Of a DNA stretch of 35,948 bases, positions 8,118 through 23,520 are shown one piece after another. The stretch is from Methanobacteriaceae archaeon 41_258. Lineage in GTDB: Archaea > Methanobacteriota > Methanobacteria > Methanobacteriales > DSM-23052. Each line of letters opens with the position of its first letter. Position 1 is the stretch's first letter. The translations under genes were made by a program, and so were the position numbers. The stretch is taken from contig LGEU01000001.1 in assembly GCA_001507955.1 (NCBI GenBank), forward strand, positions 1 through 35,948, written 5' to 3'. The notes under the pieces are model-generated. The model searched no databases. It was not told the DNA's origin and saw only the letters and a list, made by a program, of their open reading frames with translations.

Positions 8118-9377
8118 ATGAACATTACCGAAAAGATACTAGCCAAGGCCGCGGGAAAAAAAGAAGTACAACCAGGCGAAATCATCGAAGTCGACATCGA
8201 TCTTGCAATGACACACGATGGCACAAGCCTACCCACAATCAAAACCTTCAAAAAAATAGCTGAAAAAACAGGACAAAAAAGAGTCTGGAACCCAAAAAAG
8301 ATAGTAATAGTCTATGACCACAACATACCCCCAAACAGTATTGGAGCAGCCGAATTCCAAAAAGTAACACGAGAATTCGCAAAAGAACAAGGAATAACAA
8401 ACATCTTCAAACACGGGGAGGGCATATGCCACCAAGTACTCCCAGAAAAAGGATTCATAAAACCAGGAAACATCATAATAGGGGCGGACTCGCACACATG
8501 CACCTACGGGGCCTTCGGAGCATTTGCCACTGGAATGGGCGCCACAGACATGGCCATGATATTCTCCACGGGCAAAACATGGCTAAGAGTCCCGGAATCA
8601 ATGAAAATAGAAGTTGAAGGTGGATTCCAAGAACATGTAACAGCTAAAGACCTCATATTACACATCATAGGAGAACTCGGAGTCGAAGGGGCAACTTACA
8701 AATCCGTTGAATTCACAGGAGAAACCATTAAAAGACTTGAAGTCCCAGAGAGAATGACCATCTGCAACATGACAGTGGAAATGGGAGCCAAAAACGGGAT
8801 AATAGAACCCAACAAAGCCACTATAGAATATCTTAAGGAAAGACTCCCCCAGGAGAAATTCAAAATCTATACTTCAGATCCTGATTATGATTATCATGAG
8901 GAATTCTATTTTAACATAGATGATCTTGAACCACAAATAGCATGTCCAAACTCAGTTGACAACGTAAAAGACGTCAGAAATGTCCTAGGAACACATATAG
9001 ACGAAGCATTCATAGGTTCATGCACAAATGGGAGGTTTGAGGACCTTAGAATGGCGGCGGAGATCTTAAAAGATGAAAAGATACACGATGATGTGAGGAT
9101 GATAATAGTCCCAGCATCCTCAGAAACCTACCTTAAAGCCCTAAAAAAAGGCCTTATAAAGGTCTTCATAGATGCCGGGGCAATAGTATGCAACCCGGGC
9201 TGCGGCCCATGCCTTGGAGCCCACATGGGCGTCTTAAGCTCTGGAGAAGTTTGCATATCCACAAGTAACCGAAACTTCCAAGGACGCATGGGAGACCCCA
9301 AATCAAAAGTCTACCTTGCGAATCCCATAATAGTGGCCCAGTCAGCCATCAAAGGCGAAATATCCATACCAGAATAA
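8118..9377 (+). CDS. hacA: Methanogen homoaconitase large subunit
   Basis: Large subunit of a heterodimeric aconitase-family hydro-lyase. With HacB it isomerises homocitrate and its homologues for coenzyme B synthesis; the close relative LeuC serves leucine synthesis. The 419-residue protein carries the 4Fe-4S ligands C302 (GSCTNGR) and C362/C365 (GCGPC), the substrate loop DSHTCTYGAFG and the C-terminal SNRNFQGRMG motif. ATG 8118 is preceded by GTGATC. It sits ten bases after aksA, which is the main reason to call it HacA rather than LeuC. The small subunit gene is not in the window; a chorismate-lyase-like gene follows instead. Confidence 0.87.
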   Translation: MNITEKILAKAAGKKEVQPGEIIEVDIDLAMTHDGTSLPTIKTFKKIAEKTGQKRVWNPKKIVIVYDHNIPPNSIGAAEFQKVTREFAKEQGITNIFKHGEGICHQVLPEKGFIKPGNIIIGADSHTCTYGAFGAFATGMGATDMAMIFSTGKTWLRVPESMKIEVEGGFQEHVTAKDLILHIIGELGVEGATYKSVEFTGETIKRLEVPERMTICNMTVEMGAKNGIIEPNKATIEYLKERLPQEKFKIYTSDPDYDYHEEFYFNIDDLEPQIACPNSVDNVKDVRNVLGTHIDEAFIGSCTNGRFEDLRMAAEILKDEKIHDDVRMIIVPASSETYLKALKKGLIKVFIDAGAIVCNPGCGPCLGAHMGVLSSGEVCISTSNRNFQGRMGDPKSKVYLANPIIVAQSAIKGEISIPE

Positions 9378-18944: not shown

Positions 18945-20000
18945 ATGAGGATAATCCAAGAAGACAAAAAAAAGGGAATCATAGAATTAATCCCTGAAAC
19001 CCTCGACGATCTCTGGCATTTATCACATATAATAGAAAAAGGCGACCTCGTATCTTCAAAGACCACGCGCAGAATACAGGACACCAGTGGTGAGAGGATA
19101 AGAAGTGACAGGGGAGTGAAGAAAACATTCTATCTAAGAATTCGTGTAGAATCTGTGAAATTTCACAAATACACTGGCAAATTAAGGGCAACAGGAATTA
19201 TAGAAAAGGGCCCAGAGGACCTAGTACCATTAGGTTCATATCATACACTAGAAATCAAATTAAACACCCCATTACGTATAAAAAAAGAAACCTGGTCCAA
19301 GTGGGCTTTGAGAAGATTAAAAGACGCCATAGAATCATCAAAAAGACTATATGCTATAATATTGGCTTTAGAGGATGACACAGCCGATATAGGGTTCATA
19401 AGGCAATATGGGATAGAATATTATGGTCCTATCATTGGGCACATCCCAGGAAAAAGAATACAACAAAAAGACCGGAGAAAAAAAATCATCCAATTCTATG
19501 AAAAAATAATAGAAGTCATAAAAAACTTGAAAGGAGTGGAACTAATCGTCATCGCAGGACCAGGATTCACAAAAACAGACTTCCATTCCTACCTAAAAGA
19601 AAAATATCCAAAATTGGCCAAGATCTCCATAATAGAAAGCACAGGAACCGGTGGCCGCGTAGGGATACAGGAAGTCCTAAAAAAAGGTACAATTGAACGA
19701 GCAGCCACAGAAAATAGAATAGCAAAAGAAATCAGAAACGTTAACGAAATACTAGAAGAAATAGCAAAATCATCAGATCTGATAGCCTATGGTGAAAAAG
19801 AAGTTAAAGAAGCAGCAAACATGGCCGCGATAAAAAAATTATTAATATTAGACAAACTTGCAAGTGAAAAAGAAACACTACTAGATTCCGTCGAAAACAT
19901 GGGCGGTGAAATAATATTAATAAGTAGCGAACACGAAGGCGGAAAACAACTAGAAGCACTCGGGGGAATAGCAGCCCTCTTAAGATTCAAAATACACTAA
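18945..20000 (+). CDS. pelA: Pelota (Dom34) mRNA surveillance factor
   Basis: Release-factor homologue that rescues stalled ribosomes with aEF1A/ABCE1. The 351 residues show an N-terminal Sm-like domain (1-130; LIPETLDDLWHLSHII and the FYLRIRVESVKFH strand), a central eRF1-like domain (about 130-260; IIAGPGFTKTDFHSYL and the TGGRVGIQEVL turn), and a C-terminal eRF1-3-like domain ending LGGIAALLRF. It lacks the GGQ motif of true release factors, as expected. ATG 18945 has GGTGTGA seven bases upstream. Leads a plus-strand run with the radical SAM and MraY-like genes. Confidence 0.96.
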   Translation: MRIIQEDKKKGIIELIPETLDDLWHLSHIIEKGDLVSSKTTRRIQDTSGERIRSDRGVKKTFYLRIRVESVKFHKYTGKLRATGIIEKGPEDLVPLGSYHTLEIKLNTPLRIKKETWSKWALRRLKDAIESSKRLYAIILALEDDTADIGFIRQYGIEYYGPIIGHIPGKRIQQKDRRKKIIQFYEKIIEVIKNLKGVELIVIAGPGFTKTDFHSYLKEKYPKLAKISIIESTGTGGRVGIQEVLKKGTIERAATENRIAKEIRNVNEILEEIAKSSDLIAYGEKEVKEAANMAAIKKLLILDKLASEKETLLDSVENMGGEIILISSEHEGGKQLEALGGIAALLRFKIH

Positions 20001-20024
20001 AAAAGTCCTTAAGTGGGCAAAAGC

Positions 20025-21209
20025 ATGGGGATAATAATCAACAACTGCAGAAGATGCAACACTTGCAACCTAGTACTATGCCCTGCAGGAAACGTTAAAA
20101 AGGCAGCTGAAAATGGTAAATGTTTCGAATGCGGAGCATGCACATTAGCCTGTCCATATAAAGCCATAAAATTGGATAAAAGTAGAAGAGAGAAGGTAAG
20201 GGTTACAGTAGATGGTAAACCAGTGAAGGTGGCAGGGCTCGTGAAAGACGCCCTCGAAGCCGCTGGAATAGACGTGGGAAAATCACCAGAAAGCACCATA
20301 TTCATGCCATGTGAATGCGGAGGCTGCTGGGCTTGCGCAGTCAAAATCGATGGAAAACTGGCATTATCATGCATAACACCATTATCAGAGGGCATGGAAA
20401 TAAAAACAAAGATCAAATCCCCTTTAAGGGCCATAAGCGGGTTCGGCGCCCACATGGTAGGTGGTGTTGGAACACCATACTATCTAAAAGAGAGTATAAG
20501 GCCCATAGAAGTGGTTGGATTCACACACGGTTGCAACCTGAGATGTCCACAATGCCAAAACTACCGCATCGCCTTCACAGCAAAAGCCCCATTACTAGAA
20601 CCCAAAGAAACAGCTAAAATCCTACTAGGCCTTGAATCAATATACATAACAGGCACGATAACATTCTCGGGTGGGGAATGCACATTAAACAAGGAATGGC
20701 TGCTTGAAACAATGCAACGAATAAAAAGAGAAAGGAAAGTTAACATACACATTGACACGAATGGGACAATACTAAACCCAAAATACATAGACCAACTAGT
20801 AAAAAAAGGAATGACACAGATAGGCATAGACCTCAAAGCTCTCAAGACTAGGACATTTCAACGCATCACAGGCATAAGAGACGAAAAAATCGCAAAAGAA
20901 TACCTAAAAAATTCGTGGAGTGCCACAGAATACATCACTAACAATTACGAGGAAGAGGTATACCTAGGAGTTGGCATTCCATACAATAAAAAATTAATAA
21001 CAATAAAAGAAGTCAAAAGAATGGGAGAAAAAATCCGCAAGATCAACCCAGAAATCCAAGTTTGTGTACTGGACTATAGGCCAGAATTCAGAAGACAAAT
21101 CATCAAAAGGCCATCATTCAATGAAATGATCCAAATAAAAAAACTATTAAACAATGAAGGTCTCAGAACCGTCATCGTCCAAACCACCCACGGCCACATC
21201 GGACCATAA
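20025..21209 (+). CDS. Radical SAM protein with fused ferredoxin domains
   Basis: Three iron-sulfur modules occur in one 394-residue chain. Residues 8-43 hold two 4Fe-4S-type Cys sets (C8/C11/C14/C19 and C33/C36/C39/C43-Pro). Residues ~57-120 look like a plant-type 2Fe-2S domain (VRVTVDGKPV, then C98-GG-C101-WA-C104 and C116). From ~160 comes a radical SAM core with C170xxxC174xxC177 in GCNLRCPQCQN, followed by TFSGGECTL and HIDTNG, closest to glycyl-radical-enzyme activases (PflA/COG1180 type). The ferredoxin parts may deliver electrons to the SAM cluster. ATG 20025 is chosen over GTG 20013. Target unknown; no glycyl radical enzyme lies nearby. It sits between pelA and the MraY-like gene. 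Confidence 0.88.
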   Translation: MGIIINNCRRCNTCNLVLCPAGNVKKAAENGKCFECGACTLACPYKAIKLDKSRREKVRVTVDGKPVKVAGLVKDALEAAGIDVGKSPESTIFMPCECGGCWACAVKIDGKLALSCITPLSEGMEIKTKIKSPLRAISGFGAHMVGGVGTPYYLKESIRPIEVVGFTHGCNLRCPQCQNYRIAFTAKAPLLEPKETAKILLGLESIYITGTITFSGGECTLNKEWLLETMQRIKRERKVNIHIDTNGTILNPKYIDQLVKKGMTQIGIDLKALKTRTFQRITGIRDEKIAKEYLKNSWSATEYITNNYEEEVYLGVGIPYNKKLITIKEVKRMGEKIRKINPEIQVCVLDYRPEFRRQIIKRPSFNEMIQIKKLLNNEGLRTVIVQTTHGHIGP

Positions 21210-21226: not shown

Positions 21227-22084
21227 ATGTTAAATAAAATCATCATCGCAACAATCATAACACTAATCCTAACACCAACAATAAAGTATCTCATAGAAAA
21301 ATATGCCAAATCCACCAACCTCTACACCAGAATCCGGGGGGGCACGCCACGTGGAGCAGGCCTAGCACCATTCATTATCCTCATACTATTTTTACCCACA
21401 CCCTACAACCTCCTAATTGGGATAATGGGCATCCTAGCGTTCATCGACGACATCCTAGGGAGAAAAAGGATAAAAAACTCGATGGTGGAATGGGGACAAT
21501 TAGCAAGGGGTCTTGGGATAGTAATCATTTCAGTCCTGGGATATCCCATAATGGGCCCTTCCAGCATCATCGTAGCCTTCATGATACAACCGTTGAACAT
21601 TGCAGACATGCAACCAGGAGCCGCCTGCACCACCATAATAATAACCTCACTTTTAATCATCATCATCTCTTTACTCAAAAACCAGCCAATATACTTTCCC
21701 CTCTTAATATTAGTTACTTGCATCGCATATTCACCCCTAGACTACAAGGGAAAGATAATGATGGGTGAAATAGGTAACCACAGTTACGCCATAGCCCTAG
21801 GCTTAAGCTTCCACCTCCTCGGAGGATTCACAACAGTCCTAACATTCTTCTTACTTACAACATTTATAATAGCTCTAATAAGAAGAGAAAACTTGAAAAA
21901 GTATATCCAAGAAAACCTTAGAATCAAAAACCCGACCTTGGGGGACTGTTTTATGGATGTTATAAGTGGCGGGGGGCTCGGAGACTTGCTAAGACAATTA
22001 ATATTAAGAGATAAAAAATTCAAAGTCAAAAATAGGATACTGAAAATCCTAGGGTTTAGAAGATTACTTCACAACCCACACTAG
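21227..22084 (+). CDS. MraY-like phosphoglycosyl transferase (GT4)
   Basis: A 285-residue polytopic membrane protein of the MraY/WecA/GPT superfamily, which moves a phospho-sugar from a UDP-sugar to a polyprenyl phosphate. Signature pieces: TRIRGGTPRGAGLA near 34-47, the FIDDILGRK aspartates D74/D75, the N125..D128 segment (LNIADMQPG), and GEIGNHSYAIALG at 181-193. The usual GDxG is GEIG here, and the usual NxxDGxDGLA is altered. In pseudomurein-walled methanogens this family is a candidate for the lipid-I step of wall synthesis. ATG 21227 has GTGAGG upstream. With the MurG-like gene 387 bases downstream it suggests a lipid-linked wall precursor pair; the substrate is inferred. Confidence 0.82.
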   Translation: MLNKIIIATIITLILTPTIKYLIEKYAKSTNLYTRIRGGTPRGAGLAPFIILILFLPTPYNLLIGIMGILAFIDDILGRKRIKNSMVEWGQLARGLGIVIISVLGYPIMGPSSIIVAFMIQPLNIADMQPGAACTTIIITSLLIIIISLLKNQPIYFPLLILVTCIAYSPLDYKGKIMMGEIGNHSYAIALGLSFHLLGGFTTVLTFFLLTTFIIALIRRENLKKYIQENLRIKNPTLGDCFMDVISGGGLGDLLRQLILRDKKFKVKNRILKILGFRRLLHNPH

Positions 22085-22470
22085 TTTTTACCCCCCCTAA
22101 CAATATCCTAGCCGGGTGCTTAAACTAAGCTCAAGCTTTTCAAAGACCAATAGGATCCCTCTAGGTGCTTGGGCATTTCCATCCCATGATCTTCTAAAAA
22201 TATAATCTAAGTGGATGGAGTAATCTCCTTTTTAAATTTGATTTTTTCATGGGGACTGGATACTTGAATCTCCCTGGATCTTTTTTTCCGGATAAAATTT
22301 CATAACCACTAACCAATAAAAATTATATTATAATGTTAAGATTTATAGTCATCCCACTAGGGGATAAATGTTAATATCAAGTATCCCCCCCCACTTTAGC
22401 TTTTACAAGCGAATTCAATTCAAATGTCCTCGGAACCTTGAAAGAATTGGAGTCCACTCTAGGTGAGAAG
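22085..22470. other. 386-base intergenic region with promoter and stem-loop
   Basis: Short T-runs follow the MraY-like stop and occur at 22281-22287, possible terminators. A TATA-like TTATATTATA at 22324-22333 (plus) probably drives the MurG-like gene. GGGGATA at 22360-22366 can pair with TATCCCC at 22382-22388 around a 15-base loop, placing a hairpin in the leader. No credible coding frame is seen on either strand, and I see no tRNA, repeat or clear box C/D RNA. Confidence 0.4.
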
Positions 22471-23520
22471 ATGAAAGCATTGTTTATTATCACAGGCCGT
22501 GGTATTGGTGGTGACGCTGTAATGGGGCTTAACATAGCGCAGAACCTTTCTAATAGAGGTTTTGAATGTGAATTTGCATTAGATCGCACAGCCCCTGGTA
22601 TACTCTTCAAAAAAAGGAGTATAAAATGGTACAAGATGCTGATACCCCAAGCCGGAGGCCATGCTGCCACAAAATCTAGCCTGTTTAAAGCTGCTTTAAA
22701 AGCCTTAAAGGGTACATGGGAAGGTTATAAGTTGATAAAAAAGGTAAAACCAGATGTAGTGGTTGGTGTTATAGGCGGCGGAGCCGTGATCGGCTGTTTA
22801 TCGGCTAAATTGGCCAGAGTACCTGCTGTGGGCATATCAAACACTCCAACCGATGCTAGAATATGTAGAATTCTTAATCCAACTATAATGTTACCAGAAT
22901 CTGGCCTTTTTGGGATAAAGGGCATGAAGAATGTTCACAGTTCATACTCTCCAATAGATCCAAAAATCACAATGGGAAACCCTGATAATGCGCTTAAAAG
23001 AATGCCACCATCCTTCAAGGAGGATCTTCCAACAATATTATTTTCTTCTGGTTCATCACTTTTTGAATTAATGGCAAAAGCCGCGAAAAGGATAAGTGAA
23101 ACAGATATAGAAGCGAATATTGTAGTAGTAGGCCACCCCCTAAAAAAAGATTTTGAAGGATACCTTCAAAGTCCCAGGATCATAAAACTAGGATATATAG
23201 ATTGGGTTCCTGACCTTTACAGTCTTGTTGACCTTGCAGTGTTATCTGATGACGGTGTCATGATACATGAAGCCATAGCATGCAAAGTTCCAATAATCGC
23301 ATTAAAGGGTGTTAAGTATGGGAGATATCATAATATGGCCTCTGTGTTCCCTGGTGCTGTTGTCGAAAGCGATTTTAATAACCTCGAAAACACCTTGAAA
23401 AGGGCGCTTAAAATGAAGGATGAAATGATGGAAAAAGCATCCTATTATGGTGAAAAGGTTATAAAAGCCAGTGACAGGATCGCTGATATAATCGTGAAGG
23501 CTGCAATGAAGAAAATTTAA
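22471..23520 (+). CDS. MurG-like glycosyltransferase (GT-B)
   Basis: A 349-residue GT-B-fold protein of the MurG/UDP-N-acetylglucosamine transferase class. It has an N-terminal glycine-rich acceptor loop (TGRGIGGDA), PDVVVGVIGGGAV, a linker, then a nucleotide-sugar half with VVVGHP, LGYIDWVPDLY and EAIACKVPIIALKG. In bacteria MurG adds GlcNAc to lipid I; in Methanobacteriales a homologue is expected in pseudomurein precursor synthesis. Start: a TTG exists at 22438, but AGGTGA four bases before ATG 22471 decides the start. It lies in the same direction as the MraY-like gene but has its own promoter region. The stop TAA shares bases with the opposite-strand reductase stop. Acceptor and sugar are inferred. 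Confidence 0.83.
   Translation: MKALFIITGRGIGGDAVMGLNIAQNLSNRGFECEFALDRTAPGILFKKRSIKWYKMLIPQAGGHAATKSSLFKAALKALKGTWEGYKLIKKVKPDVVVGVIGGGAVIGCLSAKLARVPAVGISNTPTDARICRILNPTIMLPESGLFGIKGMKNVHSSYSPIDPKITMGNPDNALKRMPPSFKEDLPTILFSSGSSLFELMAKAAKRISETDIEANIVVVGHPLKKDFEGYLQSPRIIKLGYIDWVPDLYSLVDLAVLSDDGVMIHEAIACKVPIIALKGVKYGRYHNMASVFPGAVVESDFNNLENTLKRALKMKDEMMEKASYYGEKVIKASDRIADIIVKAAMKKI

Follow-up and report, generated by a model that had tools for sequence, protein, structure and literature searches.

The locus and the modules of P0001

The window analysed here is a stretch of 35,948 nucleotides from a Methanobacteriales metagenome-assembled genome (MAG; G000:C119, 94% complete), whose family is referred to as f1. 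All features of the window described below lie on its plus strand. The ORF at 20025..21209 encodes a radical SAM (rSAM) protein of 394 aa, P0001, in which ORF, translation, Pfam and AlphaFold2 analyses revealed two 4Fe-4S sites, a 2Fe-2S domain and a PflA-like radical SAM core. It begins with ATG at 20025 and has its stop at 21209, and an alternative in-frame GTG is found at 20013. Upstream lies pelA (18945..20000), encoding pelota for mRNA surveillance (TIGR00111, 439 bits against a cut-off of 177.65). Downstream, a gene at 21227..22084 encodes an MraY-like membrane protein, for which no Pfam family was above its cut-off. A MurG/GT28-like glycosyltransferase gene (22438..23520) is located 353 bases further downstream and was not counted with the unit; Glyco_transf_28 and Glycos_transf_1 are above cut-off in its product, which scored 28.8 bits with the murG model, far under the cut-off of 250.

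P0001 contains 18 Cys residues. The N-terminal 8Fe-ferredoxin-like module (20046..20153) was delimited by Cys positions, conservation and a strict pattern search. Its eight conserved Cys (8/11/14/19 and 33/36/39/43) form the motifs C8-x2-C-x2-C-x4-C19 and C33-x2-C-x2-C-x3-C43-P, which are the two C-x2-C-x2-C-xn-C sets of an 8Fe-type ferredoxin. Pfam Fer4 gave 20.3 bits in P0001, just below the cut-off of 21.1, and was above cut-off in the Methanothermus fervidus homologue (27.6). Residues 56-129 (20190..20411) constitute a plant-type 2Fe-2S ferredoxin domain, as revealed by Fer2_4 (PF13510; 8.9e-9, 35.7 bits against a cut-off of 22.8), by a fold search with the isolated segment and by the ligand motif C96-x4-C101-x2-C104-x11-C116. 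A linker (R135...H143-x2-GG-x2-TP151; 20427..20477) connects this domain to the barrel. The radical SAM core and C-terminal part (residues 161-394; 20505..21206) match Radical_SAM (PF04055) at 1e-19, above the Pfam cut-off, as well as radical SAM folds in the PDB. The core motifs are CxxxCxQC at 170-177 (CNLRCPQC), SGGE at 215-218, DTNG at 244-247 and DLK at 269-271. D244 and D/E269 are conserved and, by analogy with pyruvate formate-lyase (PFL) activase, could form a putative monovalent-cation site. C219 and C347 are the sole further Cys past the core motif and both vary in the alignment, so P0001 has no SPASM-type (SPASM/twitch) auxiliary cluster.

Conservation of the cluster ligands

The Cys pattern is not due to chance, because it is conserved across 74 aligned homologues. 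C116, C170, C174 and C177 are invariant (74/74), and C96, C101 and C104 are Cys in 73 of the 74, with one gap. The eight 4Fe-4S positions hold Cys in 63-67 rows, the others being gaps save for one Tyr. R135, H143, G146, G147, T150 and P151 in the linker are likewise invariant in 74/74 and are specific to this family; Q176 and Q178 in the region of the radical SAM motif are also invariant. A pattern search found the 2Fe-2S motif in all 82 members, and the strict pattern found the complete 2x 4Fe-4S module in 71, so that 71/82 retain all three modules. Three Methanobacteriaceae (L020, L021, L038) and three bacterial members (L070, L071, L099) are missing the 4Fe-4S module. The core chemistry therefore does not require the complete set of clusters. 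One Thermoprotei MAG has the ferredoxin and radical SAM portions in two adjacent ORFs (L088:7923-8423 and 8427-9167), which reflects either a frameshift or a natural separation of relay and core.

Predicted structure

The AlphaFold2 model of P0001, built from the 74-sequence alignment, has a pLDDT of 92.8 and a pTM of 0.92. Its top fold in the PDB is PFL activating enzyme (3cb8, E 2.8e-13, TM 0.77 by target); the PFL activase structures 3cb8, 3c8f and 8fo0 all match at E about 1e-13 to 1e-12 with TM 0.77-0.79 by target, followed by NifB, lipoyl synthase and viperin at 1e-8 to 1e-6. Residues 52-146 were also modelled separately (pLDDT 85.8), and this isolated segment matches the 2Fe-2S domains of the complex I 75 kDa subunit, HydA and formate dehydrogenase alpha. 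Sequence profiles gave the same two relatives, HydA1 at profile positions 57-143 (7e-12) and PFL activase in the core (1.4e-11).

These results bear on the original prediction, which was made from the DNA sequence. It had assigned eight Cys to two 4Fe-4S sites and a CxxxCxxC motif to a radical SAM core, and both assignments hold. Its 2Fe-2S module was also correct, but the ligand set that it gave, C-x2-C-x2-C-x11-C, was not; that set includes C98, a position occupied by Cys in just 7 of the 74 homologues, and the true pattern is C-x4-C-x2-C-x11-C. Structure prediction had been named as a possible refutation of the 2Fe-2S fold, and the modelled segment instead matched 2Fe-2S domains. A close characterised homologue, which would likewise have counted against the prediction, was found neither among NCBIfam models nor in the literature search.

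Distribution of the family

One scan of genome contigs detected at least 78 related loci, most of which span the whole chain. Outside Methanobacteriales, the full-length identity is 40-49%. Among the matches listed, the archaeal carriers are Thermoproteota, Bathyarchaeota, Methanomethylicota, Caldarchaeales-type, Archaeoglobi, Methanoperedens, Methanomicrobiales and Methanopyri-type MAGs, and the bacterial carriers are Desulfobacterota, Chloroflexota and Methylomirabilota. The family tree mostly follows the organisms, with the Methanobacteriales members in one supported clade. The family to which P0001 belongs is ancient and uncharacterised, and its carriers are anaerobic archaea together with some anaerobic bacteria. 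A plasmid search gave no match.

Within Methanobacteriota, 16 of 152 genomes carry the gene: four in f1, eight in f2, the single f4 genome and three in f3. It is present in all 13 genomes of f1, f2 and f4 and in three of the other 139. The rRNA model needed for a 16S-based growth temperature matched only 2/30 genomes, and amino-acid composition was used instead. Each estimate drew on a few tens of kb of the genome; those for sampled members of f1, f2 and f4 came to 57-72 C, and those for sampled members of f3, carrier G048 included, to 8-46 C. From this difference, the gene is thermophile-biased within Methanobacteriota, with exceptions. P0001 might be a heat-adaptation enzyme of thermophilic archaea that modifies, for example, tRNA, rRNA or lipid. 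Its presence throughout the thermophilic-looking families is consistent with this, as are the composition-based estimates for their sampled carriers set against the 8-46 C of sampled non-carriers, and many carriers elsewhere, among the matches listed, are hot-spring archaea. However, sampled Methanobacteriaceae carriers look mesophilic by the same composition-based estimate (about 38-41 C), and archaea and bacteria of groundwater, wetland and sediment also carry the gene. P0001 also differs from Gms, a known lipid enzyme with a SPASM domain (PMC11186832). We therefore regard a role in heat adaptation as rather doubtful, though deserving a minor share of belief.

Gene neighbourhood

The spacing in this window (pelA stop at 20000, rSAM ATG at 20025, MraY-like ATG at 21227) is compatible with co-transcription, which the original prediction had stated while suggesting a phylogenetic profile against pseudomurein genes. 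One possible reading is that P0001 acts in pseudomurein biosynthesis alongside the MraY-like gene, for instance as an epimerase that uses radical chemistry on a sugar to form talosaminuronic acid. The order pelA - rSAM - MraY-like is kept in f1, f2 and f3 carriers, that is, in three Methanobacteriales families. The MraY-like gene is probably OG0001207, which is reported to be among the genes almost restricted to pseudomurein-containing archaea (PMC11915815); that finding does not cover the rSAM gene, and the word 'radical' is absent from the main text of this 2025 pangenomic paper. The distribution of the genes supports neither a functional reading of the co-transcription nor a phylogenetic link to pseudomurein. 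pelA and the MraY-like gene are each found in 60/60 genomes, whereas the rSAM gene is found in 16/152 Methanobacteriota. Nearly all Methanobacteriaceae have this pair of genes and lack the rSAM gene. In sampled non-carriers, the pair is separated by only 64-704 bp that contain no trace of an rSAM gene; tblastn of the 19 gaps in which both flanks were located detected no remnant of a lost gene. In M. fervidus the rSAM gene is located elsewhere, between PolD DP2 and a CbiA/CfbB-like gene, as identified by reading the sequences. Most members of the family, among the matches listed, belong to lineages without pseudomurein, and the rSAM gene does not have the presence in, and restriction to, pseudomurein archaea that would mark a pseudomurein gene. 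A role in pseudomurein synthesis is thus highly improbable, and the pelA/MraY-like site in Methanobacteriales is a happenstance location rather than the pathway of P0001.

No other partner recurs. No Pfam family was found in more than three of 85 adjacent genes, and outside Methanobacteriales no neighbour family occurs in more than three loci; NucS, for instance, neighbours the rSAM gene at three Bathyarchaeota loci. The rSAM gene stands alone, without a stable gene partner. Two observations concern the flanking genes themselves. The PolD DP2 gene adjoining the M. fervidus rSAM gene seems to hold an intein (L128:10283-14422), and in one genome the MraY-like gene is interrupted, with 254 aa and a second piece in another frame (L013:2626-3390; G016:C1:1510008-1510846), perhaps because of a sequencing error.

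At one locus, that of the Anaerolineaceae homologue L104, an AMMECR1 gene whose start is Memo-like (L104:7167-7838) precedes the rSAM gene by 121 bases; this is the sole such adjacency seen directly beside the family. This homologue has 834 aa, and its extra part lies after a masked stretch in the record, for which reason a domain fusion was rejected. The adjacency raises the idea that P0001 substitutes for a component of the AmmeMemoRadiSam system or works with it, and two COG1180-type paralogues, L002 and L004, align through the C-terminal part of P0001. However, the canonical rSAM enzyme TIGR04337 was over its cut-off in 37/37 genomes tested, carriers and non-carriers alike. In the genome of P0001 it is a separate gene (L007, 225.5 bits), and P0001 itself scored 28.7 bits against the cut-off of 220. 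Substitution was rejected because the canonical enzyme is present in every genome tested, and with adjacency at a single locus, any role in this system is barely credible.

Glycyl radical enzymes

The likeness to PFL activase suggests another possibility, that P0001 is the activase of a glycyl radical enzyme (GRE), either NrdD or an unrecognised one, as an NrdG/PflA variant with its own ferredoxin. In addition to the best fold, the closest NCBIfam model (NrdG2, TIGR02495) points in this direction, and NrdD was found in all Methanobacteriota genomes tested. The original prediction had noted no GRE nearby, and this observation can be widened to the whole genome, in which NrdD was the only GRE detected. 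However, the same genome has a separate NrdG gene, L005, above the curated cut-off (175 bits against 131). The identification of P0001 as NrdG was rejected, since its 69 bits are below this cut-off and the true NrdG is L005. NrdD matches are present in 60/60 relatives, most of which do not have the P0001 family. PFL-type GREs are present in only 5/16 carrier genomes, and the GRE adjoins its own activase in both of those inspected. In the wider family, NRDD went unmatched in 13 of 43 genomes, and in 11 of those 13 Gly_radical was without a match as well. One of the 11 is L104 (CP070708.1), whose record is titled as a chromosome; in the MAGs, such absence may partly reflect incompleteness. A detectable GRE in the same genome is therefore not a family-wide feature. 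The separate NrdG, the GREs with their own activases and the 11/43 genomes without a GRE make it unlikely that P0001 is a GRE activase, and we leave this reading only a small chance.

A PFL-like GRE (PF02901, PF01228) beside its own radical SAM activase was observed in two Methanothermobacter-type genomes (L174:3430-6248 and L175:3208-5995). The setting resembles a surface polysaccharide cluster, with flippase-like, UDP-galactopyranose-mutase-like and glycosyltransferase-like genes; it would be unusual for an archaeon to have a GRE that acts on sugars.

Proposed function

We consider it fairly probable that P0001 is an electron-wired, PflA-like radical SAM enzyme with a non-glycyl-radical substrate. 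The N-terminal clusters could plausibly be a self-contained electron wire, which is consistent with their conservation. They would take low-potential electrons from the ferredoxin pool of the cell or, alternatively, directly from a flavoenzyme or hydrogenase, as with the 2Fe-2S domains of HydA and NuoG. The electrons would then pass to the 4Fe-4S cluster held by C170, C174 and C177, and the reduced cluster would cleave SAM to yield a 5'-deoxyadenosyl radical. This radical would abstract hydrogen from a substrate other than NrdD or another GRE. By analogy, the substrate is slightly more likely to be a protein or other macromolecule than a small molecule, a lean that comes only from the closest solved fold, PFL activase, which acts on a protein. 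A broader and more tentative proposal, which we hold to be possible but on balance doubtful, is that anaerobic archaea have in this family a core modification enzyme that has escaped recognition, in which a radical SAM catalyst with a hydrogenase/complex I-type relay modifies a protein, RNA or cofactor in an undescribed way.

Radical SAM enzymes usually need separate ferredoxin or flavodoxin partners, which are hard to identify, and this hampers in vitro work. With a three-cluster relay built into the chain, electron transfer to the SAM cluster could be examined within a single polypeptide, and the members without the 4Fe-4S part (L020, L021, L038, L070, L071, L099) offer a natural comparison. 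Many anaerobic archaea conserve this uncharacterised family, which makes its substrate a worthwhile target.

Comparison with known systems

Both radical SAM cores and ferredoxin domains are familiar modules, and activases with inserted ferredoxins exist. In P0001, a radical SAM core is joined to a plant-type 2Fe-2S domain. No curated NCBIfam model reaches its cut-off for P0001, and a literature search, with most subscription journals outside its scope, found no paper on such a 2Fe-2S/radical SAM fusion and no named homologue. The closest model, NrdG2, resembles P0001 in having a compact core without a SPASM domain, and P0001 scored 69.4 bits with it (cut-off 131.15). The AmmeMemoRadiSam enzyme (TIGR04337) and the paralogues L002 and L004 align with the C-terminal extension of P0001 to near the chain end, and L004 and L007 share with P0001 the CQN after the cluster motif; however, no ferredoxin-like modules were seen in the TIGR04337 enzyme, L002 or L004. 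L002 (1351-2289) and L004 (1060-2175) are two more PflA-like radical SAM paralogues in the genome of P0001, and a GGVG stretch before the cluster motif is common to L004 and P0001.

The GMGT lipid synthase Gms is likewise a radical SAM enzyme; it carries auxiliary clusters and comes from obligately anaerobic archaea. It has an N-terminal helical domain and a C-terminal SPASM domain, and ferredoxin is never mentioned in the paper that describes it (PMC11186832). P0001 has neither domain, and its identification as Gms was rejected on this layout. PflA shares with P0001 the radical SAM fold, SGGE, DTNG, DLK and CxxxCxxCxN, but it is about 245 aa long, lacks N-terminal ferredoxin domains and acts on a glycyl radical enzyme. 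The residue before the last cluster Cys is aromatic in PflA (YC) and Q in P0001 (QC). HydA1, NuoG/complex I 75 kDa and NAD-dependent formate dehydrogenase alpha share with P0001 the Fer2_4 fold, the 2Fe-2S ligand pattern and 4Fe-4S clusters in the same chain. In these proteins, however, the 2Fe-2S domain precedes the 4Fe-4S domains, the reverse of the order in P0001, and it feeds hydrogenase, complex I or molybdopterin sites rather than a radical SAM cluster.
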